A stretch of 64,000 bases of DNA from Ruminococcus sp. YE71 (GTDB lineage: Bacteria > Bacillota > Clostridia > Oscillospirales > Ruminococcaceae): NCBI RefSeq assembly GCF_900119155.1, contig NZ_FPIR01000004.1, forward strand, positions 1 to 64,000, in the 5' to 3' direction. Below, one piece after another: positions 15,501-52,566 of this stretch; position 1 is the stretch's first letter; every line of letters starts with the position of its first letter. The notes beneath the pieces were generated by a model, which saw only the letters and a program-made list of their open reading frames with translations, was not told the origin of the DNA and made no database searches. The position numbers and the translations under genes are program-made.

Positions 15501-16169
15501 ATGGAGAAAAAGAAAACGAGCGAGCTCCTTCTGCTCGCTGTGGCGTTCTTCGGTGTGATGGGCGGACTGGCGACCCTTTTCTTTGTCGGTATGCCCTTCG
15601 CCATGAAGCTGTCGGTGTCGGCGCGTATGCCGCTGGTCATCGTGATGAGATGGGCGCTCATGCTCGTGCCCGCCATGATAATGATACTGCGCGAGGAGAG
15701 CTTCAGGGAGTTCCTGCCCGAAAAAGAAAAGCTCGGCAGACAGATAGTCACAGGCGCCGCGGTGGGTGCGGCGTTCTCGGCAGTGATGACGCTGATACCG
15801 CATCTTGCAGGCTTCGGCGAGTCGGTCAGCGCGGGATACGGCTACAAATACCTGTGGCAGTTCGCATTCGAGTTCATCAACTGCATCTTCTGCATCGGAC
15901 TGACAGAGGAGTTCATCTTCCGCGGATATTTCTACAGCAGACTGGAGCGCATTTTCGGAAGTACGGCGGCTGTCGCAGGTTCGTCGGTGCTGTTCGGGCT
16001 GTTCCATCTGTTCGGCGGCAATATCGTGCAGATGATATTAACGGGTCTGTTAGGCGCGGCATGGTGCATCTGCCGCAAAAAGATACCTCACTGCACACTG
16101 CTGTCCCTTATTATAGCGCACGGTCTGTACGATTTTCTCATACACGTATGGGAGTTCGTGTTCAGCTGA
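15501..16169 (+). CDS. CPBP family intramembrane glutamic protease
   Basis: A 222-aa protein with about six membrane segments. It has the three CPBP/Abi motifs: 'EEFIFRG' (motif 1, catalytic Glu-Glu and Arg), 'FGLFHLFGG' (motif 2, His) and 'IAHGLYDF' (motif 3, His). Family members are CAAX-type proteases or bacteriocin self-immunity proteins. The ATG at 15501 follows acaggag. It continues the same-strand run after the DUF4321 gene, with a following gene after 15 nt. The substrate is unknown. Confidence 0.88.
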   Translation: MEKKKTSELLLLAVAFFGVMGGLATLFFVGMPFAMKLSVSARMPLVIVMRWALMLVPAMIMILREESFREFLPEKEKLGRQIVTGAAVGAAFSAVMTLIPHLAGFGESVSAGYGYKYLWQFAFEFINCIFCIGLTEEFIFRGYFYSRLERIFGSTAAVAGSSVLFGLFHLFGGNIVQMILTGLLGAAWCICRKKIPHCTLLSLIIAHGLYDFLIHVWEFVFS

Positions 16170-16184
16170 CCAAAGGAGACTATC

Positions 16185-16544
16185 ATGTTCGGTCTGTTCA
16201 GAAAAAAGGCGGAGAACGACTCTCCGCTGAAAAAGCGCGTCAGAGACATGAAATGCCGCAAGATAAGCTACGTTGACTGCGACTTTGACGAGCTCTGCGC
16301 GAAAATGCGGCAGTCGCCCGAAGCGATACTCTCGCTCACCCCCGTGAACTACTACGCGGTCAAGAACGAGTACATACTCGCGCTTGTCTACACCTCGCCC
16401 GACTACTCGGAGAATTACGTTCAGCTGAAACGCATCTCCTTCGAGAAGCAGTGCGGTCAGAGCGAAATATACGCCCTTGACAGCAGTACCGTGTCAAGGG
16501 CGTTGGCTAAAGTAGGTATAATCATCGATCTTCCGAAGCAGTGA
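16185..16544 (+). CDS. Hypothetical protein
   Basis: A 119-aa soluble protein with a basic N-terminus (MFGLFRKK) and no signal or membrane segment. An aaaggag ribosome site precedes the ATG. It follows the CPBP gene closely. The predicted mixed alpha/beta content and 'EAILSLTPVNYYAVKNEYI' do not point to a family I know. Confidence 0.6.
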   Translation: MFGLFRKKAENDSPLKKRVRDMKCRKISYVDCDFDELCAKMRQSPEAILSLTPVNYYAVKNEYILALVYTSPDYSENYVQLKRISFEKQCGQSEIYALDSSTVSRALAKVGIIIDLPKQ

Positions 16545-16564
16545 CCTGCTTGTCGGGAAGGTCT

Positions 16565-17101
16565 TTATGCGGGTGCGACGGCCGCGTATCTCTTTACGAT
16601 GAACGCCGCCGTCGCTCCGAGTATCACGCCCTCAAGCGCTCCGCAGAGCACGTCGGTGGGGTAGTGGATGTAGAAATACAGTCTCGAAAAACCTATCACT
16701 GCCGAGACCGCGTAGCATATCAGACCGAGTTTCCTGTTGAAGCAGAATACCGCGGTCGAGAAGCAGAACGAGGTGCAGGTGTGTCCCGACGGGAAGGAGT
16801 AGCTCGACGGTTTGTGGACGATGGTGTCTATCCAGTCGTGTACGACGAAAGGTCTCGTCCGTCTGACCAGATGTTTTATCATCAGCTCACTTATAAAAAC
16901 TTCGAGCACCAGCGAAAGACCGCCTGCCGCACCCATCTGTCTCGTCTTTTTTACGCGCAGGAACACGAGTGAGAGAAATATCCACAGGATGCCTGCGTCA
17001 CCGAGATAGGTGAACACAGCCATGATGACGTTCAGTACCGGGCTATGTATCTTCTGTAAAGCGTCGAGTACCGAAAAGTCAAAATTTGTGATGCTTTCCA
17101 T
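16565..17101 (-). CDS. PAP2 family phosphatase
   Basis: A 178-aa integral membrane phosphatase. All three active-site motifs are present: 'KHLVRRTRPF' (KX6RP), 'PSGHT' and 'SRLYFYIHYPTD' (SRX5HX3D). Such enzymes dephosphorylate undecaprenyl pyrophosphate or phosphatidic-acid-type lipids at the outer face of the membrane. It faces the preceding gene convergently (20 nt between stops) and has its own promoter at 17138-17166. Recycling of undecaprenyl pyrophosphate is the likeliest role but is inferred. Confidence 0.9.
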   Translation of the reverse strand: MESITNFDFSVLDALQKIHSPVLNVIMAVFTYLGDAGILWIFLSLVFLRVKKTRQMGAAGGLSLVLEVFISELMIKHLVRRTRPFVVHDWIDTIVHKPSSYSFPSGHTCTSFCFSTAVFCFNRKLGLICYAVSAVIGFSRLYFYIHYPTDVLCGALEGVILGATAAFIVKRYAAVAPA

Positions 17102-17137
17102 TTGTTACCTCCATATAACATTCACAGTGTGAAAGTT

Positions 17138-27567: not shown

Positions 27568-29322
27568 TCAGAACAGTTCGACCGTCTCGATGCCGAGGAT
27601 GTCGAGGTGCTTTTCAAGCAGCGTCTTGGAAGCGTAGCAGAGGTTCACCCATGCGCGTTTCTTGTTCTCGTCGGGCTCGTCAACGATGTGGTTCTCGTGG
27701 TAGAACTTCGCGAACAGCTCGGCAAGCTTGTAGGCGTTCTCGCAGACGATGTTCGGCGCTCTGTCGCGGAACGCAAGTCCGAAGGCTTCGCCGCTCATGG
27801 CGAGACCCAGCAGCAGCGCCCTCTCGGAATCGCTGTAAACGTCGGCGGAGTCGAAGCCCGCGGGAGTGAAGGTCTTATTCAGTATCGAATTGATGCGGGC
27901 TACCGAGTAGAGCAGGAACGAACCTGTCTTGCCCTCAGCCGCCATGAACTTGTCGAGGTCGAAGATGTAGTCCTTCATGCGGTGGTTGATGAGGTCGCCG
28001 AACTTGATAGCCGCGACTGCCACGCGCCTTGCGATGTCCGCCTTGTCCTCCTCAGCCGAGTGGGTGGACTTGCCCACGATGTCGAGTGCGTAGTCGTACA
28101 CCTGGGCGTAGAGCGCTTCAAGACGCATAACGCCGCCCTCACGGGTCTTGTAGGGCTTGCCGTCCTTGCCGTTCATCGTGCCGAAGCCGAGATGTTCGAG
28201 GGAGCAGTCCTCTGGGACGATGCCCGCCTTCTTCGCACAGCGGAACACCTGCGTGAAGTGCAGGCTCTGACGGCTGTCAACGACGTACCACACCTTGTCG
28301 GGCTTCCAGTCCTCAACACGCTGGATGAGGGTGGCGAGATCGGTGGTGGCGTAGATGTTCGAGTCGTCGGATTTCTTGATGATGACGGGGGGGATGGTGA
28401 TCTTGTCGGTCTCCTCCTCAACGTCAACGACCATCGCGCCCTGGCTCTCGTGGAGCAGTCCCTGAGCGTTGAGGGTCTCCAGCAGACGGGGCACGAACTT
28501 CTCCGCGTCGCTCTCGCCGTACCAGTAATCGAAGCTGACGTTCAGAGTGTCATAGTTGCGCTTTACGTCAGCAACGCTGACCTTGATTATCTCTCTCCAC
28601 AGTGCCATGAACGCGGGATCGCCCTTCTGGAGACCTGCGGTGACAGCCTTTGCCTCAGCCTTGAACTCCTCGTCCTCCTTGCTCTTTGCACTTGCGAAGG
28701 GGTACACCTCGTTGAGCTCGTCGGCGGTCAGCGGCAGGCTGGTGAAGTTCGCAGGGTCGAAGCCCTCCTTAAAGCACTCCCACTCGGGGTGACGCACTCT
28801 CAGCTCCGCGATGACAAGACCTATCTGGAGTCCCCAGTCGCCCAGATGAACGTCCGAAACGGTCTTTCTGCCCGTCGCCTGTGCGAGCCTTTTGAGGGAT
28901 TCGCCGATGACTGCCGAACGCAGATGTCCGATGTGGAGCGGCTTTGCAACGTTCGGTCCGCCGTAGTCGAGGACGATGGTCTCGGGCTTTTCAGCCTGCG
29001 GGATGCCGAGATTTTCATCGGAGAGCATCTCGGTAACGTAGCCCAGCAGCAGCTTGTCAGAAACGTCTATGTTTATGAAGCCTGCGCCTACGACCTCTAT
29101 CTTTGCGAGGTCGGCGTCGTCAGTCAGCTTGTCAGCAGCTTCCTGCGCGATAACACGCGGAGCCTTCTTGTAGAGCTTAGCGCCCGAGAACGCGCCGTTG
29201 CACTGGAACTGGCAGAGGTCGGGACGGTCGGAAACGACGACTGTGCCGAGGTCGGCCGAGTATCCGCAGGCCTCGAACGCCGCCGAGAGTTTTTCGGTAA
29301 GTATCTGTGTCAATGCTTTCAT
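27568..29322 (-). CDS. argS: Arginyl-tRNA synthetase
   Basis: A 584-aa class I synthetase that charges tRNA-Arg. The N-terminal Add-1 domain is followed by 'YGGPNVAKPLHIGHLRSAVIG' in part, with the HIGH motif near residues 129-132. The KMSKS region is divergent, as in many ArgRS, and the C-terminal DALR anticodon-binding domain ends the protein. ATG 29322 is chosen because ggagg lies just before it; in-frame codons further upstream lack a ribosome site. Its promoter is at 29360-29388. Confidence 0.97.
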   Translation of the reverse strand: MKALTQILTEKLSAAFEACGYSADLGTVVVSDRPDLCQFQCNGAFSGAKLYKKAPRVIAQEAADKLTDDADLAKIEVVGAGFINIDVSDKLLLGYVTEMLSDENLGIPQAEKPETIVLDYGGPNVAKPLHIGHLRSAVIGESLKRLAQATGRKTVSDVHLGDWGLQIGLVIAELRVRHPEWECFKEGFDPANFTSLPLTADELNEVYPFASAKSKEDEEFKAEAKAVTAGLQKGDPAFMALWREIIKVSVADVKRNYDTLNVSFDYWYGESDAEKFVPRLLETLNAQGLLHESQGAMVVDVEEETDKITIPPVIIKKSDDSNIYATTDLATLIQRVEDWKPDKVWYVVDSRQSLHFTQVFRCAKKAGIVPEDCSLEHLGFGTMNGKDGKPYKTREGGVMRLEALYAQVYDYALDIVGKSTHSAEEDKADIARRVAVAAIKFGDLINHRMKDYIFDLDKFMAAEGKTGSFLLYSVARINSILNKTFTPAGFDSADVYSDSERALLLGLAMSGEAFGLAFRDRAPNIVCENAYKLAELFAKFYHENHIVDEPDENKKRAWVNLCYASKTLLEKHLDILGIETVELF

Positions 29323-29359
29323 GATTTTTCCTCCGTTTATTGCAATAGTCAACATTATC

Positions 29360-29388
29360 ATTATACCATATTATTATCGCTTTTTCAA
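29360..29388 (-). promoter_or_regulatory. Sigma-A promoter of argS
   Basis: On the minus strand, TTGAAA (29388-29383), 17-bp spacer, TATAAT (29365-29360). Confidence 0.85.
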
Positions 29389-29463: not shown

Positions 29464-29509
29464 ATGGTAAAATAATATTGACAATTTTATTGAAATATGG
29501 TAAAATAAT
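29464..29509 (+). promoter_or_regulatory. Promoter and direct repeat before the GTPase/Hsp70 cluster
   Basis: TTGACA (29478-29483), 17-bp spacer and TAAAAT (29501-29506) form a good sigma-A promoter. A 13-bp word atggtaaaataat occurs at 29464-29476 and again at 29497-29509, exactly 33 bp apart. The second copy covers the -10 element, so it could be an operator. Confidence 0.7.
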
Positions 29510-29572: not shown

Positions 29573-31387
29573 ATGGGCAATTCAGACGGCGGCGGATGCG
29601 TCGGACTTGTGATAATCATCGGCGTCGTGGCATACATCATCGAACTGCTGGTAAAACTGCTGTCGAAAGTATTTGTCGCGGCGATCAGTATAGTGGGCAT
29701 ATTGCTGCTGGCAATGTGTCTTGTAGGCGCTGTGATCGGCGTATTCTACGCATTCAAGAGCTTTTTCGCGGCTGTGATGGAAGTCAGCGACGACCGAAAG
29801 GCGCTGTTCTCGAAGCCGCAGTACACACGCCTTACCCTGCCGAGGACGGCTGACGGAAAGTTCGAATTCTACGAGGACATCTCGCGGGCGAGCTATTTCA
29901 ACGGCGGTATGCTCAAGGACATCGGCAGCATCCTCAAAAAGACATTCTCGAACAGTGTGAAGAGACTCAGGATATTCGGCAGCAACATATCCGATTCAAG
30001 CGGCCTCTTCGGAAAGACTTTCTCGATAATCAAGAACGTTTTCTCGATAATCTCGCTTCTTGTGTTCGGCATGGTGGTCTCGGCGGTGCTGAGCGTCATG
30101 ATAGTAGTCTCTTCGGTCATCATACTCATATTCTACAGGATATTCTTCTTTGCCGTGCTCTCGGCGGAAAAAGCGAGCTTTTCGGCGAAGAAGATCACAA
30201 ACCGCTGCGACTTCTGCAAGGCGGAGTACGACCTTCCCGTCTACTTCTGCCCGAAGTGCGGCATTCCCCACAGATACCTCAGACCGAGCAAGTTCGGCAT
30301 TTTCTACCGCACCTGCGTCTGCCTTGAAAAGCTGCCCGTTACCGCAGGCGGCAAATGTGCGGACGGCAAAAAGCGCAGTCAGCTCACAGCCGCCTGCCCG
30401 AAATGCGGAAAGTCGGACAGATCCTCCGAGACACGTCCTCTCGGCATACCGCTCATCGGCGGCGTGAACGCGGGCAAGACCACCTTCAAGACCGCGTTCC
30501 TCTACAGCTTCCTCAACGACGAAGCTACAAAGCTCGGGCTCACCATAAAGCTGAACGACAAGGCGATGGAGAACGAGTTCGAGGAGATACGCAGCTGCTT
30601 CATCGGCAAGCGTATGGTAACAGAGACACGCCCGGGCAAGGAGTACGACGTTACTTCCTTCAACTTCGTCATCGAGCACGAAAAGCTCTCGGTGCCGAGA
30701 CTCATGCACATCTACGATATGCCCGGTGAGGTGTTCGAGCAGTCGAACGCTCAGGAGAGCCTGAAACACTTCACGTTCAGTGAGGGCGTTATATTCGTCA
30801 TCGACCCGTACACCTTGCAGTCGATAATCTCTTCCGAGAGCGACCTCGGCGGCATGAGAGTCGGAAAGATGGATTTCAACACGCTGGTGGAGGTGTTCTG
30901 CGAGACCCTCGAAAAGCTGCCGAATATGCCCCGCGAAGGCAAGAAATACGCCATCCCCGTGGCTATCTGCATAAACAAGGTGGACACTCCTTCGCTGAGG
31001 AACCGCATCGGTATGCCTGCCGCGAGAAAGCTCATGAACGCAAAGCCCGAGGTCTACAGCGACAGCTACGATACGATGGATATGCTCTGCCGCGAGTTCC
31101 TTTCGGCGAACGGCAAGTCCAACGCCGTGACGCTGCTTGACCAGAACTTCAAGTATGTGCATTTCTTCGCCTGCTCGGCTACGGGCAGCATACCAAAGGG
31201 ACCCGTCAGATTCGTGCCCGAACAGGTGCTGGCGGCAGTCTACTGGATAACCGCACGCTCCGACAGCCAGCTCGCACCGCTGCTGGGTACGGATGTGCCC
31301 CATGACATCGACGAAAGCACAAGAAAACGCCTGTCACAGAACAGGTCGGATTACTTCGAGATAATCGAGAATTCTCTCGTTCATTAA
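29573..31387 (+). CDS. Membrane-anchored zinc-ribbon GTPase (TRAFAC-like)
   Basis: A 604-aa protein. Hydrophobic helices lie near residues 8-65 (two) and 150-200 (two). Two zinc-ribbon CxxC pairs follow ('CDFCKAEY' with 'CPKCGIPH', and a later 'CPKCGKSD'). The C-terminal half is a GTPase: P-loop 'GGVNAGKTT' (from residue 296), DxxG as 'DMPG' (382) and NKxD as 'NKVD' (468). This resembles the double-GTPase/TRAFAC enzymes of predicted conflict systems. ATG 29573 follows gaggtg; GTG 29564 is part of that ribosome site. It heads a same-strand cluster with a GrpE-like gene and Hsp70. Confidence 0.78.
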   Translation: MGNSDGGGCVGLVIIIGVVAYIIELLVKLLSKVFVAAISIVGILLLAMCLVGAVIGVFYAFKSFFAAVMEVSDDRKALFSKPQYTRLTLPRTADGKFEFYEDISRASYFNGGMLKDIGSILKKTFSNSVKRLRIFGSNISDSSGLFGKTFSIIKNVFSIISLLVFGMVVSAVLSVMIVVSSVIILIFYRIFFFAVLSAEKASFSAKKITNRCDFCKAEYDLPVYFCPKCGIPHRYLRPSKFGIFYRTCVCLEKLPVTAGGKCADGKKRSQLTAACPKCGKSDRSSETRPLGIPLIGGVNAGKTTFKTAFLYSFLNDEATKLGLTIKLNDKAMENEFEEIRSCFIGKRMVTETRPGKEYDVTSFNFVIEHEKLSVPRLMHIYDMPGEVFEQSNAQESLKHFTFSEGVIFVIDPYTLQSIISSESDLGGMRVGKMDFNTLVEVFCETLEKLPNMPREGKKYAIPVAICINKVDTPSLRNRIGMPAARKLMNAKPEVYSDSYDTMDMLCREFLSANGKSNAVTLLDQNFKYVHFFACSATGSIPKGPVRFVPEQVLAAVYWITARSDSQLAPLLGTDVPHDIDESTRKRLSQNRSDYFEIIENSLVH

Positions 31388-31411
31388 CAGACAAAACAAG
31401 GAGGTAATAAG

Positions 31412-32290
31412 ATGTCGGAAGAAAAAAACGTTCAGGATTTCTGCTCGGATGACGAGGTCATCGCTCCCCCCGCGGAGACGGAAGAAGTGACCGCTCCCGA
31501 AGAGGAGAACGCAGGATACCCCGAACAGACAGAGACAGAAAACAGCGCACCTGAGGAAGAACGTCACGGCGGCTACTTCGACACCTTCCCGAACGGGCCT
31601 GCGCTCCATCATCCGCCTTCCCCGTCGGTAAAGGAGATACTGAAAAAGACTTCGGGGAACAGCGTCAGCCGCGAACTCATCGACAGCATGATCGAAGAGA
31701 ACCGCGCGGCGTTCGCGGAGCTGACAGCGAAGAACGAAGCCCTCGCGGCACAGAACGATACGCTCCTCGCCGCAAATGAGAGCTTACAGGCACAGCTTGA
31801 TTCGCTGGGGGAAAGGCTCGACAGGCTGACCGCACAGGTGGTAAACACCAACCGCGCAGTCACCATGCATGAGACTATCGAGGGCAACCTCAACAAGGAA
31901 CTGCAAAACTACAAGAACGACTTCTACGGGAAGCTCGCCACGCCTTTCCTCATGCAGATGATATCCCTCTGCATCGAGATGACGAAGGAGCTGGAGGAAC
32001 TGCTCGATGAGATAGCCGCCAGCGAAGAACCCACGGGTCACGAGGATGTGGTCAGCAGCCTTTCCTACTACGTGGAGAAGATACGCGGTTCGCTTGTGAA
32101 CAGCGGCGTTGAGATGGAACGTCCCGAAGAGGGCGAGAAGATGGACCCCTTAAAGCATCAGATAGTGCGGACGATACCCTCTGACGACCCCGAGATGAAC
32201 GGCGTCATAGAGTCCGTCCGCAGCAGCACATACACCTACAACAACAAGATACTGCTACGCGCAAAGGTCGCAGTATACAAATCCAAGTAA
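31412..32290 (+). CDS. GrpE-like nucleotide exchange factor with long acidic N-terminus
   Basis: A 292-aa protein. Residues 1-65 are acidic and Pro/Glu-rich, residues 85-150 form a strong coiled coil, and a helical segment and beta-rich end follow. The C-terminus fits the GrpE head pattern: 'GVEMERPEEGEKMDPLKHQ', a break, then 'LLRAKVAVYKSK', like GVE-GE-FDP-H and LRPAKVVV in GrpE. It ends 15 nt before the Hsp70 start, which supports a dedicated exchange factor. The N-terminal extension is not found in housekeeping GrpE. The start follows aaggaggt. Assignment rests on pattern matching. Confidence 0.65.
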   Translation: MSEEKNVQDFCSDDEVIAPPAETEEVTAPEEENAGYPEQTETENSAPEEERHGGYFDTFPNGPALHHPPSPSVKEILKKTSGNSVSRELIDSMIEENRAAFAELTAKNEALAAQNDTLLAANESLQAQLDSLGERLDRLTAQVVNTNRAVTMHETIEGNLNKELQNYKNDFYGKLATPFLMQMISLCIEMTKELEELLDEIAASEEPTGHEDVVSSLSYYVEKIRGSLVNSGVEMERPEEGEKMDPLKHQIVRTIPSDDPEMNGVIESVRSSTYTYNNKILLRAKVAVYKSK

Positions 32291-32305
32291 ACGGAGGATA
32301 ATAAA

Positions 32306-33874
32306 ATGGCAGAAAAATATGTATTCGGAATAGACCTCGGCACCACCTACTCCTGCATCAGCTACTTTGATGAGAATATGCAGTGCATCCCCTGCCCGAG
32401 CATGGAAGGACCTACCACCACACCGTCGGTTGTAAGGCTCGAACCAGGCTGCGACCCCGTAGTAGGTCAGGCGGCAAAGAACACCGCTGTCATCTATCCC
32501 GACCATACCATCCAGTTCGTTAAGAGCCGTATCGGCAAGGACGCTACCTTCAACTACGGCGCCGACGGCGAGCTGACCACCACGCCTATCGCTGTTTCGG
32601 CTGAGATACTCAAGAAGCTCGGCGAGGACGCCGCAAACCACACCAACTCGGAAGTAAAGCGCGTTGTCATCACCGTGCCCGCATACTTCGGCGACCCCGA
32701 GAGAAAGGCTACCGCTCAGGCAGGTATCGACGCGGGCTTTGACGTGCTCGGCATCATCGAGGAGCCTACCGCTGCGGCTATCTACTACGGCATGAACAAG
32801 TCCGAACAGCCCGAGAATATCCTCGTGTTCGACCTCGGCGGCGGTACCTTCGATATCACCGCGATGAAGATAGAGGGCAACAACTTCACCACCCTCACCA
32901 CCGAAGGCGACCACGACCTCGGCGGTAAGAACTGGGACATCGCACTCATCGACCTCGTAAAGCAGAAGTTCGAGGATCAGACAGGCTACTGCGACGGCTA
33001 CGATTCCGACATCGAGCAGGATCTGCTCATCAGCTGTGAGCAGGCCAAGATAGTTCTCTCCCAGGCTCAGAAGGCTTCGGTAGCAGTTACCATCAGCCGC
33101 GAATACAGAGCCGCTATCGAGATCACCCGCGAGGAGTTCGACGACGTTACATCGGCACTCCTCGACCGAGCTATCTCCCTCACAAGAACTGTCATCGACA
33201 GAGTCGGCGAGCCTATCACAAAGATACTCATGGTGGGCGGTTCCACCTATATGCCGCAGGTGCGCGAGGCAATCGAGAGAGAGTTCCCCCAGCTTGAGAT
33301 ATACTCCAACGAGCCGAACCACTCGGTATCCAAGGGCGCGGCTATCTTCGCGTTCAACAAGTATGTCAACCCCGACCCCGAGGAGCTGAAGGAGAAGTCC
33401 GAGCGCACCACTTCCAGCGGTGAAAAGGCTCTCGTATGCCTCGAAGAGGAGATAGACACCTACAAGAACATCGTCACCCTCGAAAACGAGATAAACATCG
33501 TGACCGTTGCCACAAAGAGCCTCGGCGTGCGCATCCTCTTCAACGGCACCCCGAAGATAAACAACCTTATCTTCAAGGATACCCAGCTTCCCGCTTCGGT
33601 AACGGCTACCTACGCTACCAACACAGCGAACGCTACCCGTATCCCGATCCGCATCTTCCAGGCAAACAACTACGATGAGTACTACGATGTTGACGACGAC
33701 CTCCAGATAGGTCAGGCAGTCCTCGAACTTGACGGCACTCTGCCTCAGGGCGCACCTATCGACGTTACCCTCTCCATCTCCGACGACGGACTTATCCACG
33801 TAAAGGGCATCGACGTCACCAACAATATCGAGGTAAACGCAAACATCGAGAACGACGCTTACAGCACCAAGTAA
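32306..33874 (+). CDS. Hsp70 (DnaK-like) chaperone lacking the lid
   Basis: A 522-aa Hsp70. All ATPase motifs are intact: 'GIDLGTTYSCISYF' (phosphate 1), 'FDLGGGTFDIT' (phosphate 2) and 'ILMVGGSTYMPQV' (adenosine). The interdomain linker DVLLLD of DnaK is replaced by another sequence near residue 377-390. A beta substrate-binding domain follows and the protein stops there, so the helical lid (about 100 residues of DnaK) is missing. It is preceded by a GrpE-like gene, but no J-domain gene is near. It is unlikely to be the housekeeping DnaK and probably serves the neighbouring GTPases. Confidence 0.9.
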   Translation: MAEKYVFGIDLGTTYSCISYFDENMQCIPCPSMEGPTTTPSVVRLEPGCDPVVGQAAKNTAVIYPDHTIQFVKSRIGKDATFNYGADGELTTTPIAVSAEILKKLGEDAANHTNSEVKRVVITVPAYFGDPERKATAQAGIDAGFDVLGIIEEPTAAAIYYGMNKSEQPENILVFDLGGGTFDITAMKIEGNNFTTLTTEGDHDLGGKNWDIALIDLVKQKFEDQTGYCDGYDSDIEQDLLISCEQAKIVLSQAQKASVAVTISREYRAAIEITREEFDDVTSALLDRAISLTRTVIDRVGEPITKILMVGGSTYMPQVREAIEREFPQLEIYSNEPNHSVSKGAAIFAFNKYVNPDPEELKEKSERTTSSGEKALVCLEEEIDTYKNIVTLENEINIVTVATKSLGVRILFNGTPKINNLIFKDTQLPASVTATYATNTANATRIPIRIFQANNYDEYYDVDDDLQIGQAVLELDGTLPQGAPIDVTLSISDDGLIHVKGIDVTNNIEVNANIENDAYSTK

Positions 33875-33909
33875 AAAACGCTCCCCCTGTGCCTGCGTAT
33901 TTTCAGGGG

Positions 33910-34318
33910 TGAGTGCGGGTAATATTTGGGGAAACCCTTTTGAAAAAGGGTTATCCCCCAAACCCCTTTCATAAAACTTTTAATACTTTTTGGCTTTTGG
34001 GTAGTTCTACCCAACTTTGTGCAGGTCGGAAAGATCGTAATTCTATTTTTCATTAGCGCCCATCAAGCCGAATTTGGGTAATATGACGGAATTTATGCAA
34101 GCATATGACGTGCAAAGGCGCGAGCCGGAGGTTGCGCGGTGTTGCCTTAGTCTGCTCCTTGCCAAAAAGACGTTCAAGGGTGGTTTACGCTTCATTTGAG
34201 GAATTGATCAGACGGTCTCTCATGAAACGGTGAGAGTCTATCTTCCCGACCAGAACCAACAGACGACAATATTAAAAGTCTTTGGAAGGGTGTTCTACCA
34301 CGGTAAGACCCGCACTCA
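33910..34318 (+). mobile_element. MITE-like element, copy 1
   Basis: A non-coding element of 409 bp with ends tgagtgcgggt (33910-33920) and its inverse acccgcactca (34308-34318). A hairpin near the left end (33927-33956) pairs ggggaaaccc with gggttatccc. Internal blocks such as ctttttggcttttgggt and ctccttgccaaaaagacg are shared with two other copies at 48903-49315 and 52323-52566. It separates hsp70 from the second GTPase gene. There is no transposase. Confidence 0.75.
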
Positions 34319-34416
34319 ACAGCACTCAAGAAGACAAACAGAGTGAGAGAAAAGCGCGAAAGGGACGTCCTTTTTCGTTTTTCTCTCATTCGCGATACTA
34401 CAAGGAGAATCCCACA

Positions 34417-35589
34417 ATGGGCCTGTTCGATTTTGACAAGGTCATCTGTCCATACTGCTACAACAAATTCCCGAAGTCGCAGATAATGTGGCGCTGCAAT
34501 TCGGGCAAGTGCATCCGTCCCGCTGCGCTTGAGGAAGACAGCGTCTACGCGGAATACCACAACATCACGAACCCTGCCGAGAAGCGCAAGCCGCATATCA
34601 TCCCCGACCCGAAGCCAAAAAAAGGCTTTGTAAAGTGCGACAAGTGCGGCGACGACACCAATATGCAGATATGCCCTGTCTGCCACAGCGTTCTGCCGAA
34701 GACCGACGAGAATATCGTCATTTCGGTCATCGGCGTTCCCGGCTCGGGCAAGAGCTACTATGTCGGCACGCTGATAAGACAGCTGAGGCAGTACATGAGC
34801 GCTTTCGGCTGCTCGATAAAATTCACCACCGATGAATCGCGCAGGATGTACGAGGACAGGTTCGAGACGCCGTTCAGCAAGCGCATCGTGCTGCCAAAAA
34901 CAAAGCAGCCCGACGAGAACGCAAACATAGTCGGCGCGAATCTGCCGATACTCTGCGACATCACCGACGACAGGCTGAAAACAAGAACATTCACCTTCTT
35001 CGACGCGGCAGGCGAGAACTTCGAGAACGAGGCGATAATGCGCTATGTCGCGCCTTACATCAGCCACTCGGCGGCGATAATACTGCTGCTCGACCCGACA
35101 CAGATACCTGCCGTCGCCAACACCCTCGTTTCCGAGAACCCCAACGGCGTTTCGGGACGCAGGTCGGTGAACACGGTCAGCTACGAACAGGTGCTGAACA
35201 ACACCGTCGAGGTCATCCACTCCCACCTGAAATCGAAGGGTCAGATAGACATCCCTCTGGCGGTGGGCTTCTCGAAGTGGGACCTTATCGAGAACTCCCC
35301 TACCCTGCGCCCCGACGGCGTTATCACCAACCCGAGCCCCCACTTCATGCGCGGCTTCTCGGAAGAGGACTGCGACAACGTGAGCAGCGAGGTCGAGGGT
35401 CTTCTGGCACACTGGGAGTGCCAGAACTTCGTGATGCTGGCAAGACAGCAGTTCAAGACGGTGAAGTTCTTCGGTTTCTCGGCGATAGGCGCGGACATAG
35501 AGACGGGCAGGAGCGTGCCGAACATCGTTTCAAAGCGCGTGGAAGACCCGTTCCTGTGGCTGCTGCATAAGAAGAAGATAATCATATGA
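34417..35589 (+). CDS. Soluble zinc-ribbon GTPase (double-GTPase 2-like)
   Basis: A 390-aa protein without membrane segments. The N-terminus carries zinc-binding pairs 'CPYCYNKFP' with a later 'WRCNSGKC', then 'CDKCGDD' with 'CPVCHSVLP' (about residues 72-98). The GTPase has P-loop 'GVPGSGKS' (106-113), DxxG as 'DAAG' (196-199) and a specificity motif 'SKWD' (286-289), where Ser replaces the usual Asn. ATG 34417 follows aaggag. Its stop overlaps the next start (ATGA). The zinc-ribbon plus GTPase layout matches the upstream GTPase but without its anchor. Function in signalling or conflict is inferred. Confidence 0.75.
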   Translation: MGLFDFDKVICPYCYNKFPKSQIMWRCNSGKCIRPAALEEDSVYAEYHNITNPAEKRKPHIIPDPKPKKGFVKCDKCGDDTNMQICPVCHSVLPKTDENIVISVIGVPGSGKSYYVGTLIRQLRQYMSAFGCSIKFTTDESRRMYEDRFETPFSKRIVLPKTKQPDENANIVGANLPILCDITDDRLKTRTFTFFDAAGENFENEAIMRYVAPYISHSAAIILLLDPTQIPAVANTLVSENPNGVSGRRSVNTVSYEQVLNNTVEVIHSHLKSKGQIDIPLAVGFSKWDLIENSPTLRPDGVITNPSPHFMRGFSEEDCDNVSSEVEGLLAHWECQNFVMLARQQFKTVKFFGFSAIGADIETGRSVPNIVSKRVEDPFLWLLHKKKIII

Positions 35590-36482
35590 CGGGCGAGACC
35601 GTGCTCAGGGCGTCGGGGCTGACCCTCGACATCGGGAAAAAGCGGGTGCTGGACGATATCGGCTTCGAGCTGAAAAAGGGCGGCATCTACGCGGTGGTCG
35701 GTCACAACGGCGCAGGAAAATCAACGCTGATACGCACCCTTCTCGGGCTCGAACCGAAATACGGCGGAAGTATCACGCTCTTCGGCTCGGAGGATCTTTC
35801 CGCAGGCAGAAAACGCGTGGGCGCGATGCTCTCGGGGGACAAGCTGCCGCCGAAACAGACTGGTGAGCGCTATCTGAGGGAAATGTGTATGCTCTGCGGC
35901 TGCGACTGCGGCACGGAGATGTCACGGGTCTCGGCGCTTGCGGGGACGGACAGCTTTCTCGGGCAGAAGACAGGCGGCTACTCCTACGGGATGAAACAGC
36001 GGCTCTCGCTGGCAGGGGCACTCGTCGGAAGTCCAGACGCGGTGTTCCTCGACGAACCTTTCAAGGGGCTTGACCCCGAAGCGTCGGGACAGCTGCAAAT
36101 GACAGTCTCGGCACTGGCAAGAGAGGGCGTCACCATAGTCGTTACCGACCATATACTGCACACGCTGATACAGCTGGGCTGCGAATTCCTCGTGCTGAAC
36201 GGCGGCAGACTGACACACACCCTCACCTGCGCCGACCTCGCACGCGACCCCCTGCCCGTAAAGCGCTTCACGCTCGGCAGCCGCGCCATGAACGACGAGA
36301 CTTTCGCCGAGCGCTATCCCGACTTCTGCGGTATCGCGAGGGGGAGCTACGTTGACGTTATCGTGCCAAAGAACAAGGACGTTCCCGACAGCCTCATCGA
36401 GGGCTGCACGGAAGTCACACAGCACACCGCCGACAGCGAAGAGATGCTCATATGGTATATCAGCGGAAAGGACGCCACATGA
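35586..36482 (+). CDS. ABC transporter ATP-binding protein (ABC-2 type)
   Basis: A 298-aa ATPase. Walker A 'GHNGAGKST', signature 'YSYGMKQRL', Walker B 'AVFLDEP' and switch 'VTDH' are present. The signature and a C-terminal extension of about 85 residues resemble ABC-2 type exporters. It overlaps the GTPase stop and the permease start by ATGA, so the three products are translationally coupled. This is why I place the transporter in the same system as the GTPases. Confidence 0.9.
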   Translation: MTGETVLRASGLTLDIGKKRVLDDIGFELKKGGIYAVVGHNGAGKSTLIRTLLGLEPKYGGSITLFGSEDLSAGRKRVGAMLSGDKLPPKQTGERYLREMCMLCGCDCGTEMSRVSALAGTDSFLGQKTGGYSYGMKQRLSLAGALVGSPDAVFLDEPFKGLDPEASGQLQMTVSALAREGVTIVVTDHILHTLIQLGCEFLVLNGGRLTHTLTCADLARDPLPVKRFTLGSRAMNDETFAERYPDFCGIARGSYVDVIVPKNKDVPDSLIEGCTEVTQHTADSEEMLIWYISGKDAT

Positions 36483-37309
36483 AAAAGCTCACGAAAACGT
36501 ATATTTATCGGGCTTTGTTCAGCCTGCGGTATGCAGAGCAGCTGATATTCGCGGCTCTGATGGCGGTGTTCGGGGCGGTGCTGGCAGGACAGCTCTCGAA
36601 GCTGATGCTTTCGGGGGAACTGCCGCAGGGAACGCTTGCGAGCTTCCGCACGGGCGGCGGCTACACACTCGGGGTCGTGCGTTTCGGCTCGGTGATGCAG
36701 CTGAGGATGATGCGCACGAAGGACTTCATCACGGGGCTGCTGTGTACCGAGGGTCTGCTTTCGGTGGCGGCGGTGGTCTGCGTGAAGAACGTCACCGATG
36801 TGCTTCGGTACGGCGGCGCGGCAAACGCGGTCAGCCGCGGTGCGAAGCGTCGGCAGGTGTTCGGGGCGATGTGCGTAACGAACATCATCGCTGTGCTCGG
36901 CATCGCGCTGGTGACACTTGCTGCCTTCACGGCGGCGTCGCGGATAACGGCAGGCTTTAAGGGCGGCGGCATCGCGGACCTTGAGGACGTGGGGATAATA
37001 CTGCGTCAGCTGGTCGAACTGACGGCGTTTTCGGTCATGTGTACGGCGGTCGCGGCGGCATACGGGAAGCCTTTGAGGGCGGCGATGACGCTGCTGGGGG
37101 CGGTGCTTGTACTGCCGACGGCGTTCGGGTACATGAGGATCATGTACGGAACGGACTTCGGGCTGCCGAAGGTGATAAGTTTTGTGAGGATGCTGCAAAG
37201 CGGAATGTTATTGCCGAATATCGGTGATGTGATAGCCGCAGCAGGAATGGCAGCAATATCAGTACTCGCAGGAATAACGATAATGAACAGAAAACGCATA
37301 GATATATAA
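36479..37309 (+). CDS. ABC transporter membrane subunit
   Basis: A 276-aa protein with about six hydrophobic segments (near residues 20-38, 60-80, 85-110, 130-155, 170-200 and 250-272). It starts inside the stop codon of the ATPase gene (ATGA). The sequence is not close to any permease family I know, but the partner and topology fit an ABC-2 type exporter. A 305-bp untranslated stretch follows it. Confidence 0.75.
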   Translation: MKKLTKTYIYRALFSLRYAEQLIFAALMAVFGAVLAGQLSKLMLSGELPQGTLASFRTGGGYTLGVVRFGSVMQLRMMRTKDFITGLLCTEGLLSVAAVVCVKNVTDVLRYGGAANAVSRGAKRRQVFGAMCVTNIIAVLGIALVTLAAFTAASRITAGFKGGGIADLEDVGIILRQLVELTAFSVMCTAVAAAYGKPLRAAMTLLGAVLVLPTAFGYMRIMYGTDFGLPKVISFVRMLQSGMLLPNIGDVIAAAGMAAISVLAGITIMNRKRIDI

Positions 37310-37614
37310 GCATACCCCTCGTCCTCGCCGGAGATCAGGCGGGTCAATGCGCCCCGCCTTAGCTTCGCACGGCTACGCGCTTGGCAGGATATGGGACGGC
37401 AGCCCAAAAACAAATGAAGCTGACCCCTCAAAATGAGAAGTCATCTCCGACAAACATTACCTCACCAAAAGCCGCAGACACACCTCTGAAGAAAGTCGAA
37501 AAGCGGGCAGTGTGGGACAACGTCCACCACAACAAGACCCACACAAACCAAAAAATCAAAACACAAAAAACCACACACCAACAGAACTCCCCCAGAAAAG
37601 AAAGGATGGTAACT
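37310..37614 (+). other. Intergenic region with a T-poor leader
   Basis: No gene, promoter or clear terminator is seen in these 305 bp. The last 80 bases (about 37530-37605) are almost free of T and consist mostly of A and C. As RNA this would be single-stranded just before the ribosome site aaagga of the next gene. Confidence 0.4.
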
Positions 37615-40365
37615 ATGTCTATCGAACAGTCTATTTTCACTTGCTGCCGTGCCCGACGCGAAACGGGTACAACAGGCTTCGGTTACTACTCCGTGACCGA
37701 GGGAATGGACGAGCTTCGCCGCAACAGCCCCGAGCTCTCCATGCTCTCGAACAACTACTCCGCACCGAGAAATCAGGAACTCTGGTGGTCGCAGGAAAGC
37801 GACGAGACTCAGCGCGACGCCGAAGAGACCGAGGCGATAAAAAAACATCACCCCGTTTCCTTCGGCTACCGCGTCATCGAGACCGAAGGCGTGAAAAAGG
37901 CTGTGTTCACCTACGGAAAGAACCTCGGCAGAGATATCGAGGGCTTCCGACCCGGCAACATCATGGTCAATACCGTGGCAGCCGACCTCGGCGACGTGAC
38001 AGCTTACCCCTTTGAATACTTCGGCAGCCCCGAGATATTCACCGACTACGACCGCAGCTTCTTCGTGAACGCGCCCGATACCCCCGCCGACCTGCTCGAC
38101 AGACCCGAGACCCTACACACGGGCGGCAGGATAACACAGGACGACGTGGTCAGATTCATGAACGAGGACGAGCGCAGGACAGACCTCATGCTGTCGATGG
38201 TGCAGTTCGTCCTCGACCGCTCCGACCCCGACAAGACTTCGAGACAGGTCATGATCTGCGACCGTATGGAGAATATCATCTACTGGGCAGCCGCAGTCTC
38301 CCTCGTGTTCCCTCTTGAGATCGCAAAGCAGTTCTCGTTCTCCACCTACTCGTTCCTCGGCAGCGCCGATTCAAGCTCGGTCAGCCTTGAGGATGTGATG
38401 CTCTGCGGCGTCTACTCGTCAGCTGTCAACGGCGACGAACCCGACCCGCGCTCCACAAACTACGACTACGAATTTGAAGCCGAAAGGATAGAATCCGCAC
38501 TCTTCGACTTCGAGCACGACTTCTTCACCGAAGCCGATATGCATAACAACGCCTTCATGATGATAGTCCGCAGCGCTATGTCGGGCAACTTTGAACAGCT
38601 CGACGAGTTCAAGCGGTTCATTATGGAAAAGACCGACTGCCGCACCATCGGCAACGACTACGCACGGGGATGCGGCTGCTTCCTCATCGCGAAGATGCGC
38701 CGCCAGCAGAGCCTTGCTTACCTCGCCGACGCTCACTACTTTGCGAAGAAATACATGGGCGCGGACGCCATCCGCACCATCACGGGGATAGCCTACTCCT
38801 GCTCCCTCGACAAGGGCGAGATGTCACGATACTTCGACGACATCATCGAGCTGTCGAGAAGCTGCGCCGACGGCAGCAGCGAGGACAGAAAGTTCGTGTA
38901 CGCACACTGCCTGCACTTTATCCGTGAGGCATTCCTGTCACAGACCCTCTCGCGGGAGGAATATCTCTCCGCAAGCGACAGCATAAAGTCGATATTCGAG
39001 GAACACCGCGACAGCTTTGAACAGGCGTTCATAGGCTCCCTCGACAGCGAAGTGATAAGTGAACAGCTAAAGACCATCACGAAAAAATGGGTGCTGATGC
39101 ACCTTGCGGAACTTCTCTGCCGCGACGCCGCCGCTTCGGGGAAAGACCTCTACAGCCGCGACTGCGCACTCATGCTGTCGGCAGTGTACCGCGCAGTGCT
39201 CTCCGAGACCGCTGAACGCGCTGCACTGATAAGCACCTTCGCGAAGATGTTCGGTTCGCTCTCCGATTCGCTGAAACTCTACGACTTGCTGCTTGCCAAG
39301 TCCGCAAACGACAGCGAGGTCACGGACGACCTGATGTACTCTCTTGCCGAGCTTGCCGTTAGTTCCGACCTCGGCGGATTCAGGGAGATATACGGCTTCA
39401 TGTCCGAAAGCCCCTTCCGCGATCAGTTTTTCACCGCCTGCTCCGATCTGGCAGACAGCCTTGACTCTGCGCTGGAGATGTTCAACGATATGCTGGAGAC
39501 TTCGGAGAACTACGCTTACTACCTGAGGGAGATGTGCGGCAGACTTCTCGACCTGACCGAGAACGACGACTGCGAGACACAGATAAACGGCATCTACCGC
39601 GTGTTCCTCTTCGCCGAGAGCAGCGACGCCTTCGGCGTGTGCGGCACAGACCTCTGCATCGAGTTCTGCAACACGCTGTACAACAAGGGCTGCTGGTACA
39701 GGATAAGCGACGACTCGGCGGCGATACTGCGTGAACTCATAGAGGGCAGCGGCAGCGACCATTTCGTGGCGGACAGCGCGGCTCACAACATCTTCGTGAT
39801 GTACTATATAACGAAGTTCGCCGAGACTGCCGACGAGAGCCTGATACCCTTCCCGGCCGACAAAGTGGGATTCCTCGATCTGTCGCTGATACACGAGGAT
39901 GAATACGACGACGTGGTGAAAGAGATAGCCCACGCCTTCGCACGGAGGAGCATCGCGACGGGTTCGGCAGTGGATGTGCGCTACGACCTGTTCATAGATG
40001 TACACGCACAGCCCCATCCGGGGATAATAGAGCGCGTGGCAGTACTGTGGCTGAGAGAGATAATGAAAGCCGCACCGAAAGACTGCCGCGTGAGACTTAC
40101 GGCTCACATACTCGCGATAATGCACGTTGATTGCAGCGTGGACTTCGTGAAAATGGGGGAGGAGCTGTACGCAAACAAGATAAAATCGGCAGATGTGATC
40201 CGCTGCTTTGAAGACAGTGACATCTTGCGGTTCATAAAGGACTGCGGCGGCAGCGAAAAGGAACTGCAAAGGACGGCTTCGGACCTTGCGTCGGGCTGTG
40301 AAAAAGCAAAACAGAGCGGAAGCGTGCTCGGTAATCTGTTCTCACGCTTCGGAAGGAAGGGGTAG
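37615..40365 (+). CDS. Large GTPase-associated protein (GAP1-N-like)
   Basis: A 916-aa soluble protein. The N-terminus 'IEQSIFTCCRARRETGTTGFG' in part, followed by 'YYSVTEGM', fits the start of the GAP1-N domain as I remember it (sequence of the form QxxYT...GxGFGxxxxSxG). The remaining 700 residues are mainly helical and acidic with no catalytic motif I can see, and could form a repeat scaffold. ATG 37615 is 8 nt after aaagga; an in-frame ATG at 37606 overlaps that site. It lies between the ABC permease and the lectin gene (2 nt gap). Since GAP1 proteins partner conflict-system GTPases, the neighbourhood supports the call. HMM confirmation is lacking. Confidence 0.6.
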   Translation: MSIEQSIFTCCRARRETGTTGFGYYSVTEGMDELRRNSPELSMLSNNYSAPRNQELWWSQESDETQRDAEETEAIKKHHPVSFGYRVIETEGVKKAVFTYGKNLGRDIEGFRPGNIMVNTVAADLGDVTAYPFEYFGSPEIFTDYDRSFFVNAPDTPADLLDRPETLHTGGRITQDDVVRFMNEDERRTDLMLSMVQFVLDRSDPDKTSRQVMICDRMENIIYWAAAVSLVFPLEIAKQFSFSTYSFLGSADSSSVSLEDVMLCGVYSSAVNGDEPDPRSTNYDYEFEAERIESALFDFEHDFFTEADMHNNAFMMIVRSAMSGNFEQLDEFKRFIMEKTDCRTIGNDYARGCGCFLIAKMRRQQSLAYLADAHYFAKKYMGADAIRTITGIAYSCSLDKGEMSRYFDDIIELSRSCADGSSEDRKFVYAHCLHFIREAFLSQTLSREEYLSASDSIKSIFEEHRDSFEQAFIGSLDSEVISEQLKTITKKWVLMHLAELLCRDAAASGKDLYSRDCALMLSAVYRAVLSETAERAALISTFAKMFGSLSDSLKLYDLLLAKSANDSEVTDDLMYSLAELAVSSDLGGFREIYGFMSESPFRDQFFTACSDLADSLDSALEMFNDMLETSENYAYYLREMCGRLLDLTENDDCETQINGIYRVFLFAESSDAFGVCGTDLCIEFCNTLYNKGCWYRISDDSAAILRELIEGSGSDHFVADSAAHNIFVMYYITKFAETADESLIPFPADKVGFLDLSLIHEDEYDDVVKEIAHAFARRSIATGSAVDVRYDLFIDVHAQPHPGIIERVAVLWLREIMKAAPKDCRVRLTAHILAIMHVDCSVDFVKMGEELYANKIKSADVIRCFEDSDILRFIKDCGGSEKELQRTASDLASGCEKAKQSGSVLGNLFSRFGRKG

Positions 40366-40366
40366 G

Positions 40367-41701
40367 ATGAACAGGTATTTGCGGACAGCAGTGCTGACGG
40401 TCCTTATCGGGCTCTCGGTGCTGTTCACGGGGAATATCACGGCTTCCGCGCTGACGGTAGTCCCCGATTCTGCAACCCGTATCGGTTCTCACTGGTACAA
40501 GATATACAGCGATGTCCCCGCAGATTCTTCGCCAAAAGGCAAGGCTCTGGAGCTGTGCAAACAGCGCGGCGGACACATCGCTTATATAGAGGATGCTTCG
40601 GAACATCAGCTTGTACTGAATATGATAGCCAACAGCGGGATAAACGGCGATGTGTGCCTGGAGTTCGAGCCGATGTACGCCGAACTGAACGACCTGACGA
40701 TAAAGTACGATGATAAAGACAGGGCGTTCAGCAATTACGACGTCAAGACGATGGGCGAATACTTCATCTACGTCTGCGAATGGGACGAGGGAAACAAGTC
40801 CTCGGAATTCAAGACAGACTTCGGCAAAAAGCTCATTCCCGACAAGACAAAGAGCTTCGGCAGCAGTCAGTACAAGGTATTCGGCTACGGGCTCTCATAT
40901 TCGGACGCTGCGCTGTTCTGCCACGCCATCGGCGGTCACCTCGTTTCGATAGACAGCGAGGAAGAGAACAAGTTCGTCACCAAGCTCATCAAGGATGACG
41001 ACAGCAGCAGGTCGATGTTCTGGATAGGCACGCGCTACGACGGCTCGATCGGCAAATGGTGCGCCCCCGACGGTACCCCGTCCGATTACACCGACTGGAG
41101 CTCGGGGGAACCCACAAACTACCTGAACGGCGCGAATTTCACCGTCATCAACCGCAGCGTGGGGCTGTTCGACAAATACAAATGGGTGGCCGAGTTCAAT
41201 GACGGCTTCGTGGGCAGCGACCTGAAGGAATCGAGCGCCTGCTACGGTTTCGTCTGCGAATGGGAACCGGTCTGCGGCGGCGAGCGGTACTTTCACGGCA
41301 GCACCGAAAGGACCGCCACCGAGAGGCCGAACTGCATCACCGAGGGAAAGATCTCGGTGGTCTGCAAGGACTGCGGCGAGACCCTTGAGGTCATCCACAT
41401 CCCGAAAGATCCGCATAAATACCGCATCACAGGCGTGGTGAAGAACATAAAGGTCGTGGGACTGACGGTCCGCGAATGCTCGGTATGCGGCGACCGCACC
41501 TTCGACATCGACTGGAAGAAGATATGGTTCGAGCCGCTGATACTTCTGGCGGCGGCTGTGACTTCCGCGGCGTTCATATCGGCATATGCCGACTACAGGC
41601 GCGAACACGGCTCGGGAGCACCGCCGATGTGGGCGCTTCTGCTCGCGTTTGCGATGATAGCGGCGGCGGCTCTGACGGCATACCTCATCTTCATAAAATA
41701 G
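40367..41701 (+). CDS. Exported protein with C-type lectin-like domains
   Basis: A 444-aa protein. A signal peptide ends near 'ITASA' (about residue 27). Two C-type-lectin-like domains follow: a degenerate one (about 35-145) and a clear one (about 165-305) with 'SYSDAALFCHAIGGHLVSI', 'FWIGTRYDG', 'YTDWSSGEPTNYL' and 'FVCEWE'. The sugar-binding EPN/QPD motif is EPT here. A region with two CxxC pairs (about 325-385) leads to two transmembrane helices at the C-terminus (about 390-412 and 422-442). It starts 2 nt after the GAP1-like stop. It is the likely outside sensor or ligand-binding part of the cluster. Confidence 0.85.
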   Translation: MNRYLRTAVLTVLIGLSVLFTGNITASALTVVPDSATRIGSHWYKIYSDVPADSSPKGKALELCKQRGGHIAYIEDASEHQLVLNMIANSGINGDVCLEFEPMYAELNDLTIKYDDKDRAFSNYDVKTMGEYFIYVCEWDEGNKSSEFKTDFGKKLIPDKTKSFGSSQYKVFGYGLSYSDAALFCHAIGGHLVSIDSEEENKFVTKLIKDDDSSRSMFWIGTRYDGSIGKWCAPDGTPSDYTDWSSGEPTNYLNGANFTVINRSVGLFDKYKWVAEFNDGFVGSDLKESSACYGFVCEWEPVCGGERYFHGSTERTATERPNCITEGKISVVCKDCGETLEVIHIPKDPHKYRITGVVKNIKVVGLTVRECSVCGDRTFDIDWKKIWFEPLILLAAAVTSAAFISAYADYRREHGSGAPPMWALLLAFAMIAAAALTAYLIFIK

Positions 41702-41770: not shown

Positions 41771-41799
41771 TTGACATTTTCCCCATAAGAGAGTATAAT
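41771..41799 (+). promoter_or_regulatory. Consensus sigma-A promoter of guaB
   Basis: TTGACA (41771-41776), 17-bp spacer, TATAAT (41794-41799). The 66-nt leader shows no purine riboswitch that I can recognise. Confidence 0.9.
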
Positions 41800-41844: not shown

Positions 41845-43341
<1,497 letters not shown>

Positions 43342-48902: not shown

Positions 48903-49315
48903 CTTGGGGGAAACCTTTCTGAAGAAAGGTTCTCCCCCAAACCCCTTTCCAAAGACTTTTAATGCTTTTTGGCTTTTGGGTGATTCTTCCTTGCTTTGTG
49001 CTGATCGGGAAATGTGGAGTTCTCTTTTTCAATGGTCTGCTCCTTGCCAAAAAGACGGGCGAGGGTGGTTTACGCTTCATTCTGCGGAGAGGATATGGGC
49101 GAGCGTAAATATAGGATAGCAAAGAAAAAAGGCGGAAGCAAGCCCCCGCCCTACATAACAAAATTCCCGAAAATAACAGAATACATCTCTTGAAATGGTG
49201 ATAGTCTATCTTCCAAATCACGCCCAACGAACGACATATTAAAAGTCTTTGGAAAGGGGGTCTGGGGGGAGAACCTTTCTCCAGAAAGGTTTCCCCCCAG
49301 CATGACCCGCACTCA
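48903..49315 (+). mobile_element. MITE-like element, copy 2
   Basis: The best preserved copy, 413 bp. Its ends are about 60-bp imperfect inverted repeats: 48903-48962 matches the reverse complement of 49236-49300, and each arm is itself a hairpin (for example aacctttct/agaaaggtt). The outer tag gacccgcactca (49304-49315) is shared with copy 1. There is no coding sequence. It fills the gap between hydA and the pepF promoter. Confidence 0.8.
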
Positions 49316-52323: not shown

Positions 52324-52566
52324 AGTGCAGGTCTTAACCGGGGAAACCCGCCTTTTTCTTTGCTATCCTATATATATCCGCTCCGCAGAATGAAGTGTTA
52401 CGCACTCACGAACGTCTTTTTGGCAAGGGGCAACCATATAGGAGAAGAACACCAAACTTCCCGACCAACACAAATTAAAGAAGAATAACCCAAAAGCCAA
52501 AAAGCATTAAAAGTCTTTGGAAATGGGTTTGGGGATAACCTTTCTTCAGAAAGGTTTCCCCCAAGA
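52323..52566 (-). mobile_element. MITE-like element, copy 3 (inverted, shorter)
   Basis: Read on the minus strand, 52566-52323 aligns with the first half of copy 2: the hairpin arm, the cttttaatgctttttggc block, ccttgccaaaaagacg and ggatagcaaagaaaaa. It ends in a degenerate outer tag (gacctgcactc) at the stop codon of the upstream gene. The second half seen in copies 1 and 2 is missing. Confidence 0.75.

Follow-up and report, generated by a model that had tools for sequence, protein, structure and literature searches.

A Ruminococcus variant of the predicted GAP1-N2-type DO-GTPase systems with an ABC-2 exporter pair and a tandem C-type-lectin protein

Introduction

GAP1-N2 systems were defined by Kaur et al. 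in 2020 as a computational prediction (PMC7159879). In the main text of that work they comprise two zinc-ribbon GTPases, one soluble and one bearing transmembrane (TM) segments, a GAP1 protein encoded downstream of the GTPase, an FNIII protein and, often, extracellular domains. About 14% of the GAP1-N2 neighbourhoods described there combine HSP70 with GrpE, a theme in which a second HSP70 gene occurs in a subset and the FNIII protein is typically fused to DnaJ or tetratricopeptide repeats (TPR). Elsewhere, a DO-GTPase is mentioned in passing in connection with membrane stress (PMC11237479).

Here we describe an eight-gene locus of Ruminococcus sp. YE71 at positions 29573-41701 of a 64,000-nucleotide stretch of contig NZ_FPIR01000004.1, which is called the window. 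The gene system is real and conserved. It is a rare and novel form of a bacterial stress-or-defence machine so far known from prediction, and belongs almost certainly, as a Ruminococcus-clade variant, to the HSP70-GrpE theme of the GAP1-N2-type DO-GTPase systems. An ABC-2 exporter pair placed between the GTPase and GAP1 genes and a tandem C-type lectin domain (CTLD) protein encoded after GAP1 are parts not found in the main-text description of Kaur et al.

Results

Gene content and comparison with the predicted systems

A preliminary description of the window, made from the sequence alone, had placed eight same-strand genes at this site, and all of the open reading frames are present there, flanked by argS and guaB, with small corrections of the coding starts, which are best set at 34417, 36479, 37615 and 40367. 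The genes, with Pfam scores in brackets, are as follows.

29573..31387, plus strand: gene 1, membrane DO-GTPase (DO-GTPase2, 35.4 bits)
31412..32290, plus strand: gene 2, GrpE-like nucleotide exchange factor (GrpE, 43.6 bits)
32306..33874, plus strand: gene 3, lidless Hsp70 (HSP70, 289.9 bits)
34417..35589, plus strand: gene 4, soluble DO-GTPase (DO-GTPase1, 34.4 bits; DO-GTPase2, 30.4 bits)
35586..36482, plus strand: gene 5, ABC-2 exporter-type ABC ATPase (ABC_tran, 81.8 bits)
36479..37309, plus strand: gene 6, ABC-2 permease (AlphaFold2 model matched to PDB)
37615..40365, plus strand: gene 7, GAP1 protein (GAP1-N2, 30.0 bits; GAP1-M, 25.0 bits)
40367..41701, plus strand: gene 8, membrane tandem C-type-lectin protein (Lectin_C, 61.6 bits)

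The domain calls hold for seven genes with Pfam families above the curated cut-offs (27 bits for DO-GTPase2, 24 bits each for GAP1-N2 and GAP1-M), while that of the permease, the single gene without such a score, holds through the match of its model to ABC-2 permeases. Apart from two gaps, neighbouring genes either overlap or are separated by 1-24 bases. The proposed ATGA overlaps linking soluble GTPase, ABC ATPase and permease are real 4-base overlaps, and GAP1 and lectin genes are separated by 1 base. The gap between Hsp70 and soluble GTPase measures 542 bases (33875-34416) and is filled by a repeat, against 32 bases in the sister species, an uncultured Ruminococcus (genome G012, loci L008/L019); the gap before GAP1 measures 305 bases against 111.

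The locus shares with the HSP70-GrpE systems, as the main text of Kaur et al. presents them, the two DO-GTPases, one with TM segments, the GAP1-N2 plus GAP1-M protein, GrpE and an HSP70 with reduced C-terminus; an Hsp70-vWA gene and a member of the zinc-ribbon/FNIII-type family are encoded elsewhere in the genome, unlinked to the locus. It differs in the ABC-2 pair, in the tandem-CTLD membrane protein, in a membrane GTPase without predicted C-terminal TM segment and in the dispersal of the FNIII-type and second Hsp70 genes. The system had been put forward as a candidate undescribed one, which does not stand, as the HSP70 and GrpE theme and the GTPase pair were described in 2020. What was regarded as an unfamiliar combination thus has an already described chaperone/GTPase/GAP1 core, and only the ABC-2 exporter and the tandem-CTLD lectin are parts not found in that text. 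The terms 'ABC', 'permease' and 'SLH' are absent from the main text of PMC7159879, figures and supplements aside, so that an unlisted example there is possible, and 'lectin' is used in the main text only for FGS/DGR domains.

Recurrence across genomes

All eight genes recur in the same order in the sister species, also between argS and guaB. Protein identities amount to 68% for the membrane GTPase, 65% for GrpE, 88% for Hsp70, 76% for the soluble GTPase, 69% for the ABC ATPase, 61% for the permease, 65% for GAP1 and 48% for the lectin protein, with 91% for the flanking argS and 97% for guaB. As the order is kept between two Ruminococcus species whose system proteins are 48-88% identical, the neighbourhood is more than chance. 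The proposal of a single system is borne out, as the gene order recurs in related genomes and the GAP1 and GTPase calls pass the cut-offs of their hidden Markov models.

A match to the GAP1 profile was found in 9 of 397 genomes sampled from the family and in 3 of 395 sampled from the order, the window genome included, and presence in the genus is patchy (5/13 genomes). Whole genomes searched with the soluble GTPase as query yielded 30 loci. A widespread operon, seen in Ruminococcus flavefaciens and Treponema and with variations in Metabacillus and others, consists of genes for the membrane GTPase, GrpE, a ~540-aa Hsp70, a ~700-aa Hsp70, a ~1,000-aa protein, the soluble GTPase and GAP1. The window system and seven others group in a single clade, with 100/100 support in the GAP1 tree as well as in that of the soluble GTPase, and one of them, L025, has the full operon including Hsp70-vWA and FNIII-type genes plus the ABC pair. 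Variable neighbours are an acyltransferase (L009/L010), a transglutaminase (L030/L034) and a HerA-like ATPase (L028/L044); the first, an Acyl_transf_3 gene (L009:2430-3617, L010:12061-13227), stands between FNIII-type and soluble GTPase genes in two Ruminococcus genomes with no ABC pair. Genome G140 carries a second, divergent GAP1/DO-GTPase/Hsp70/GrpE system (L012, C2:1769500-1789400), the Hsp70-vWA frame of which has two stops.

No GAP1 relative was found in 50,697 phage records and no soluble GTPase relative in a scan of viral contigs; the only plasmid matches were two distant ones from Rhodococcus. Four system proteins had no match in PHROGs, and PADLOC gave only generic ATPase/coiled-coil matches and no model of a matching system. 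A clean empty site was not shown, the system-free genomes of the genus having no argS-guaB adjacency in the stretches examined.

GTPases, chaperones and GAP1 protein

The membrane DO-GTPase has N-terminal TM segments, three of them strongly hydrophobic, and two zinc-ribbon-like Cys pairs, and a simple hydropathy scan predicts no C-terminal TM segment. Its motifs GGVNAGKT, DMPGE and NKVD are intact and invariant across five aligned relatives. The soluble DO-GTPase starts with zinc ribbons and has the conserved motifs GVPGSGKS, DAAGE and SKWD. P-loop, DxxG-E and NKxD/SKxD are thus kept in both GTPases, and the Glu of the Walker-B region is present (DAAGE, DMPGE). A sequence search for a solved DO-GTPase structure found none.

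The GrpE-like factor has an acidic, coiled N-terminus. The Hsp70 consists of ATPase domain and the beta part of the substrate-binding domain and ends where the alpha lid begins in the aligned DnaK of the sister species, so that its designation as lidless is confirmed; its nucleotide-binding motifs are intact in the same alignment. The GAP1 protein has GAP1-N2 and GAP1-M domains followed by a long alpha-solenoid; its model (pLDDT 84) shows an alpha/beta N-terminal part and helices spanning residues ~312 to 912. A role as karyopherin-like Ran binder was considered and rejected, importins being found among many solenoids (TM-score <= ~0.2, Z < 10; Foldseek/VIA). As these matches to many unrelated solenoids are functionally uninformative, only the designation alpha-solenoid was retained.

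ABC-2 exporter pair

The closest solved chains to the ABC ATPase are ABCA/NosF, and NCBIfam PmtC scores 75 bits, under the family cut-off. The permease has no Pfam family of its own in the Pfam scan, while a relative at locus L111 scores with ABC2_membrane_2. Its AlphaFold2 model (pLDDT 73) has its best PDB match in PmtD (6xjh; TM-score 0.65/0.73, a resemblance of fold), followed by NosY. The pair sits between soluble GTPase and GAP1 in five of the eight clade systems (the window, L019, L023, L024 and L025), the ABC ATPases of which form a single clade with 100/100 support versus 32 others. Two changes on the tree, for example one gain and one loss, suffice for this distribution, and, being confined to 5/8 systems, the pair is an accessory part and not core. 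That it substitutes for the FNIII and Hsp70-vWA genes was rejected, because pair and genes occur together in L025 and because the window genome (G000) and G012 carry those genes elsewhere.

At L111 (805-13088; G083:C406), an operon encodes a type IV secretion system-coupling-type ATPase, JAB, ThiF (E1-like), DUF5685, an ABC ATPase and a related ABC-2 permease. The next gene, truncated where the contig ends, encodes a membrane TM2-RCC1-CTLD protein. It resembles the window in the ABC ATPase, the related permease and the membrane CTLD protein thereafter, but is a single case on a contig without GTPase, GAP1 or Hsp70, and its CTLD protein adds TM2 and RCC1 repeats. Pairing of ABC exporter and lectin as a general rule was rejected, as among ~32 other permease relatives (mostly with 1.5-kb flanks) an adjacent CTLD was seen in L111 only.

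Lectin protein

The lectin protein is composed of an N-terminal hydrophobic (signal) segment, CTLD1, CTLD2, two Cys pairs and two C-terminal TM segments. Both CTLD modules are detected in relatives; in the family alignment CTLD1 is degenerate in the window copy, and WND-like residues are found in CTLD1 of G009/G010 and not in the window copy. With CTLD1 degenerate, glycan binding is only putative. Like tandem C-type lectin receptors of the mannose-receptor type, the protein has two adjacent CTLD modules predicted outside a membrane anchor; unlike them, it is bacterial and has two C-terminal TM segments, Cys pairs and a degenerate CTLD1.

The gene follows GAP1 in seven of the eight clade systems. 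In the exception, L023, its place is taken by a gene (15649-17112) for an SLH plus NADase_transloc/F5/8 type C protein, also of a surface-binding type. Of all system proteins, the lectin protein has diverged most between the sister species (48% identity versus 88% for Hsp70), which would be expected of a ligand-facing part. Outside the main clade, a protein with a CTLD and five Big_3 domains (L014:10439-12187; G275:C71) adjoins a more distant GAP1-N2/GTPase pair.

Probable parts at other chromosomal sites

The eight-gene stretch probably holds only part of the system, which is not visible from the window alone. In G140, a contiguous complete operon comprises membrane GTPase, GrpE, Hsp70, Hsp70-vWA, FNIII-type, soluble GTPase, GAP1 and lectin genes. 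The ~700-aa protein of the widespread operon is an Hsp70-vWA fusion, and the ~1,000-aa protein has zinc ribbons; an fn3 domain scores in the L028 and L015 relatives at the same operon place, while the copy of the window genome scores none and has no Pfam match to J-domain or TPR. The window operon is without these two genes, both of which are located elsewhere in G000, with neighbours named from our own reading of the sequences.

C16:171368-173470: Hsp70-vWA gene, adjoining a glmS-like gene
C16:200126-203152: FNIII-type gene, followed immediately by aroB- and aroA-like genes

In G012 they are found on other contigs beside the corresponding neighbours, and loss of the two genes is therefore ruled out. 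The FNIII-type gene is present in G000, G012, G009, G010 and G140, all GAP1-positive; it was not found in G002 and G011, both without GAP1, and gave no hit in G008, a fragmentary genome with GAP1. From this co-occurrence with GAP1 and the contiguous operon of G140 we infer that the unlinked genes probably work with the window operon.

Flanking genes, promoter-like sites and repeats

The remaining features of the locus are the following, the site upstream of gene 1 being a consensus match only, from a consensus scan.

27568-29361, minus strand: argS, divergent left neighbour
29478..29506, plus strand: promoter-like site TTGACA-17-TAAAAT upstream of gene 1, 11/12 consensus, with TG before the second hexamer
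33875..34416: dispersed intergenic repeat (miniature inverted-repeat transposable element- or repetitive extragenic palindrome-like) between Hsp70 and soluble GTPase
41771-41799: promoter-like site of guaB, 12/12 consensus match
41866-43341: guaB, downstream neighbour

The dispersed repeat is up to ~450 bases long, with partial copies at 48904-49263 and 52389-52564 and at loci L069 and L098 of the same genome. One copy interrupts the operon between the Hsp70 and GTPase genes, and a second adjoins the unlinked FNIII-type gene on its upstream side; a role of the repeat in splitting the system is putative. An Rfam search of the window gave no match to an RNA family.

Discussion

The locus is best explained, with about even confidence, as an accessory GAP1-N2-type DO-GTPase system on the chromosome that keeps watch over the cell envelope. 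The mechanism, with a surface lectin as sensor, GTPases, GAP1 and Hsp70 as relay and the exporter as output, is proposed a little more tentatively; the lectin as sensor and the ABC pump as output, already put forward in the preliminary description, are plausible. From the observed parts, their order and recurrence, the unlinked genes, the intact motifs and the fold class of the permease, a ligand, a direction of signalling and a function may be inferred as follows. The tandem-CTLD protein would display its lectin domains outside the membrane and bind an envelope glycan or an attacking molecule, and the signal would go from there to the membrane GTPase, which would pair with the soluble GTPase on the solenoid scaffold of GAP1. 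The lidless Hsp70, Hsp70-vWA and GrpE as exchange factor may set the threshold or drive assembly and disassembly of the GTPase-GAP1 complex. The output would include the ABC-2 exporter, which, considering its resemblance to PmtCD, would most likely remove from the membrane either a lipid-like molecule or a membrane-active peptide. This resemblance and the fast change of the lectin protein favour a response to envelope attack over an intracellular anti-phage role.

Several points weigh against this reading. In the match to PmtD the resemblance is one of fold, with ~13% identity (Foldseek E 2.3e-3), and while the window pair shares permease fold and an ABC-2 type ATPase with PmtCD, the phenol-soluble modulin exporter, it is set inside a GTPase/Hsp70 operon. 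The pair is missing in three of the eight clade systems (L011, L021 and L022) and hence not essential. Contact of the lectin protein with the GTPases is only putative, the operon neighbours argS and guaB represent no recognised defence island, and the literature search turned up no experimental work on a DO-GTPase/GAP1 system.

A conflict system against phages, or one acting by abortive infection, in which the GAP1 protein and DO-GTPases sense an invader inside the cell, Hsp70 and FNIII proteins assemble and the ABC pair or the lectin protein is the variable effector at the membrane, appears rather unlikely. The core family has been predicted on such grounds, with components varying between close relatives (main text of PMC7159879), and the patchy presence in 5/13 genus genomes and the variable acyltransferase, transglutaminase and HerA-like ATPase neighbours would fit. 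On the other hand, the eight proteins include no nuclease, protease or clear killing domain, the exporter is no obvious effector, a matching PADLOC model is lacking and neither a phage GAP1 nor a viral-contig soluble GTPase relative was found, only the two distant plasmid matches.

ABC-2 exporters transport peptides, lipids and glycans. This range, the dedicated Hsp70/GrpE pair, the argS-guaB position common to two species and the origin of relatives from gut and rumen would suit a housekeeping-like machine of envelope biogenesis or secretion, in which Hsp70s and GTPases chaperone a substrate and deliver it to the exporter, with the lectin protein anchoring or checking a surface glycan in fibre-degrading bacteria. 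That proposal is unlikely, as the ABC pair is dispensable within the clade, no export substrate gene was found beside it and a GAP1 match in only 9/397 family genomes is too patchy for housekeeping. That the Hsp70/GTPase core stands by chance beside an unrelated exporter and an unrelated lectin gene could be argued from the systems lacking the ABC pair, but is extremely improbable and already contradicted by the five genomes in which the ABC pair keeps its position and belongs to a single clade, the lectin gene after GAP1 in 7/8 systems and the gene overlaps and few-base spacing.

A wider and distinctly doubtful idea is that the ABC-2 exporter and membrane CTLD protein form a portable sensor-and-expulsion cassette adopted by different intracellular conflict cores. 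Such cores would be DO-GTPase/GAP1/Hsp70 here and JAB/E1-like in L111, and the cassette would, with equal doubt, defend the envelope against attacking peptides.

With respect to the family, DO-GTPase/GAP1 systems are predicted in hundreds of bacteria, and as parts of the system are probably split over several chromosomal sites, surveys confined to gene neighbourhoods would undercount them. The window variant possesses directly assayable parts, a predicted external lectin domain, an ABC-2 exporter and a dedicated Hsp70/GrpE pair, and the ligand of the lectin and the substrate of the pump are concrete hypotheses for a family so far without any.

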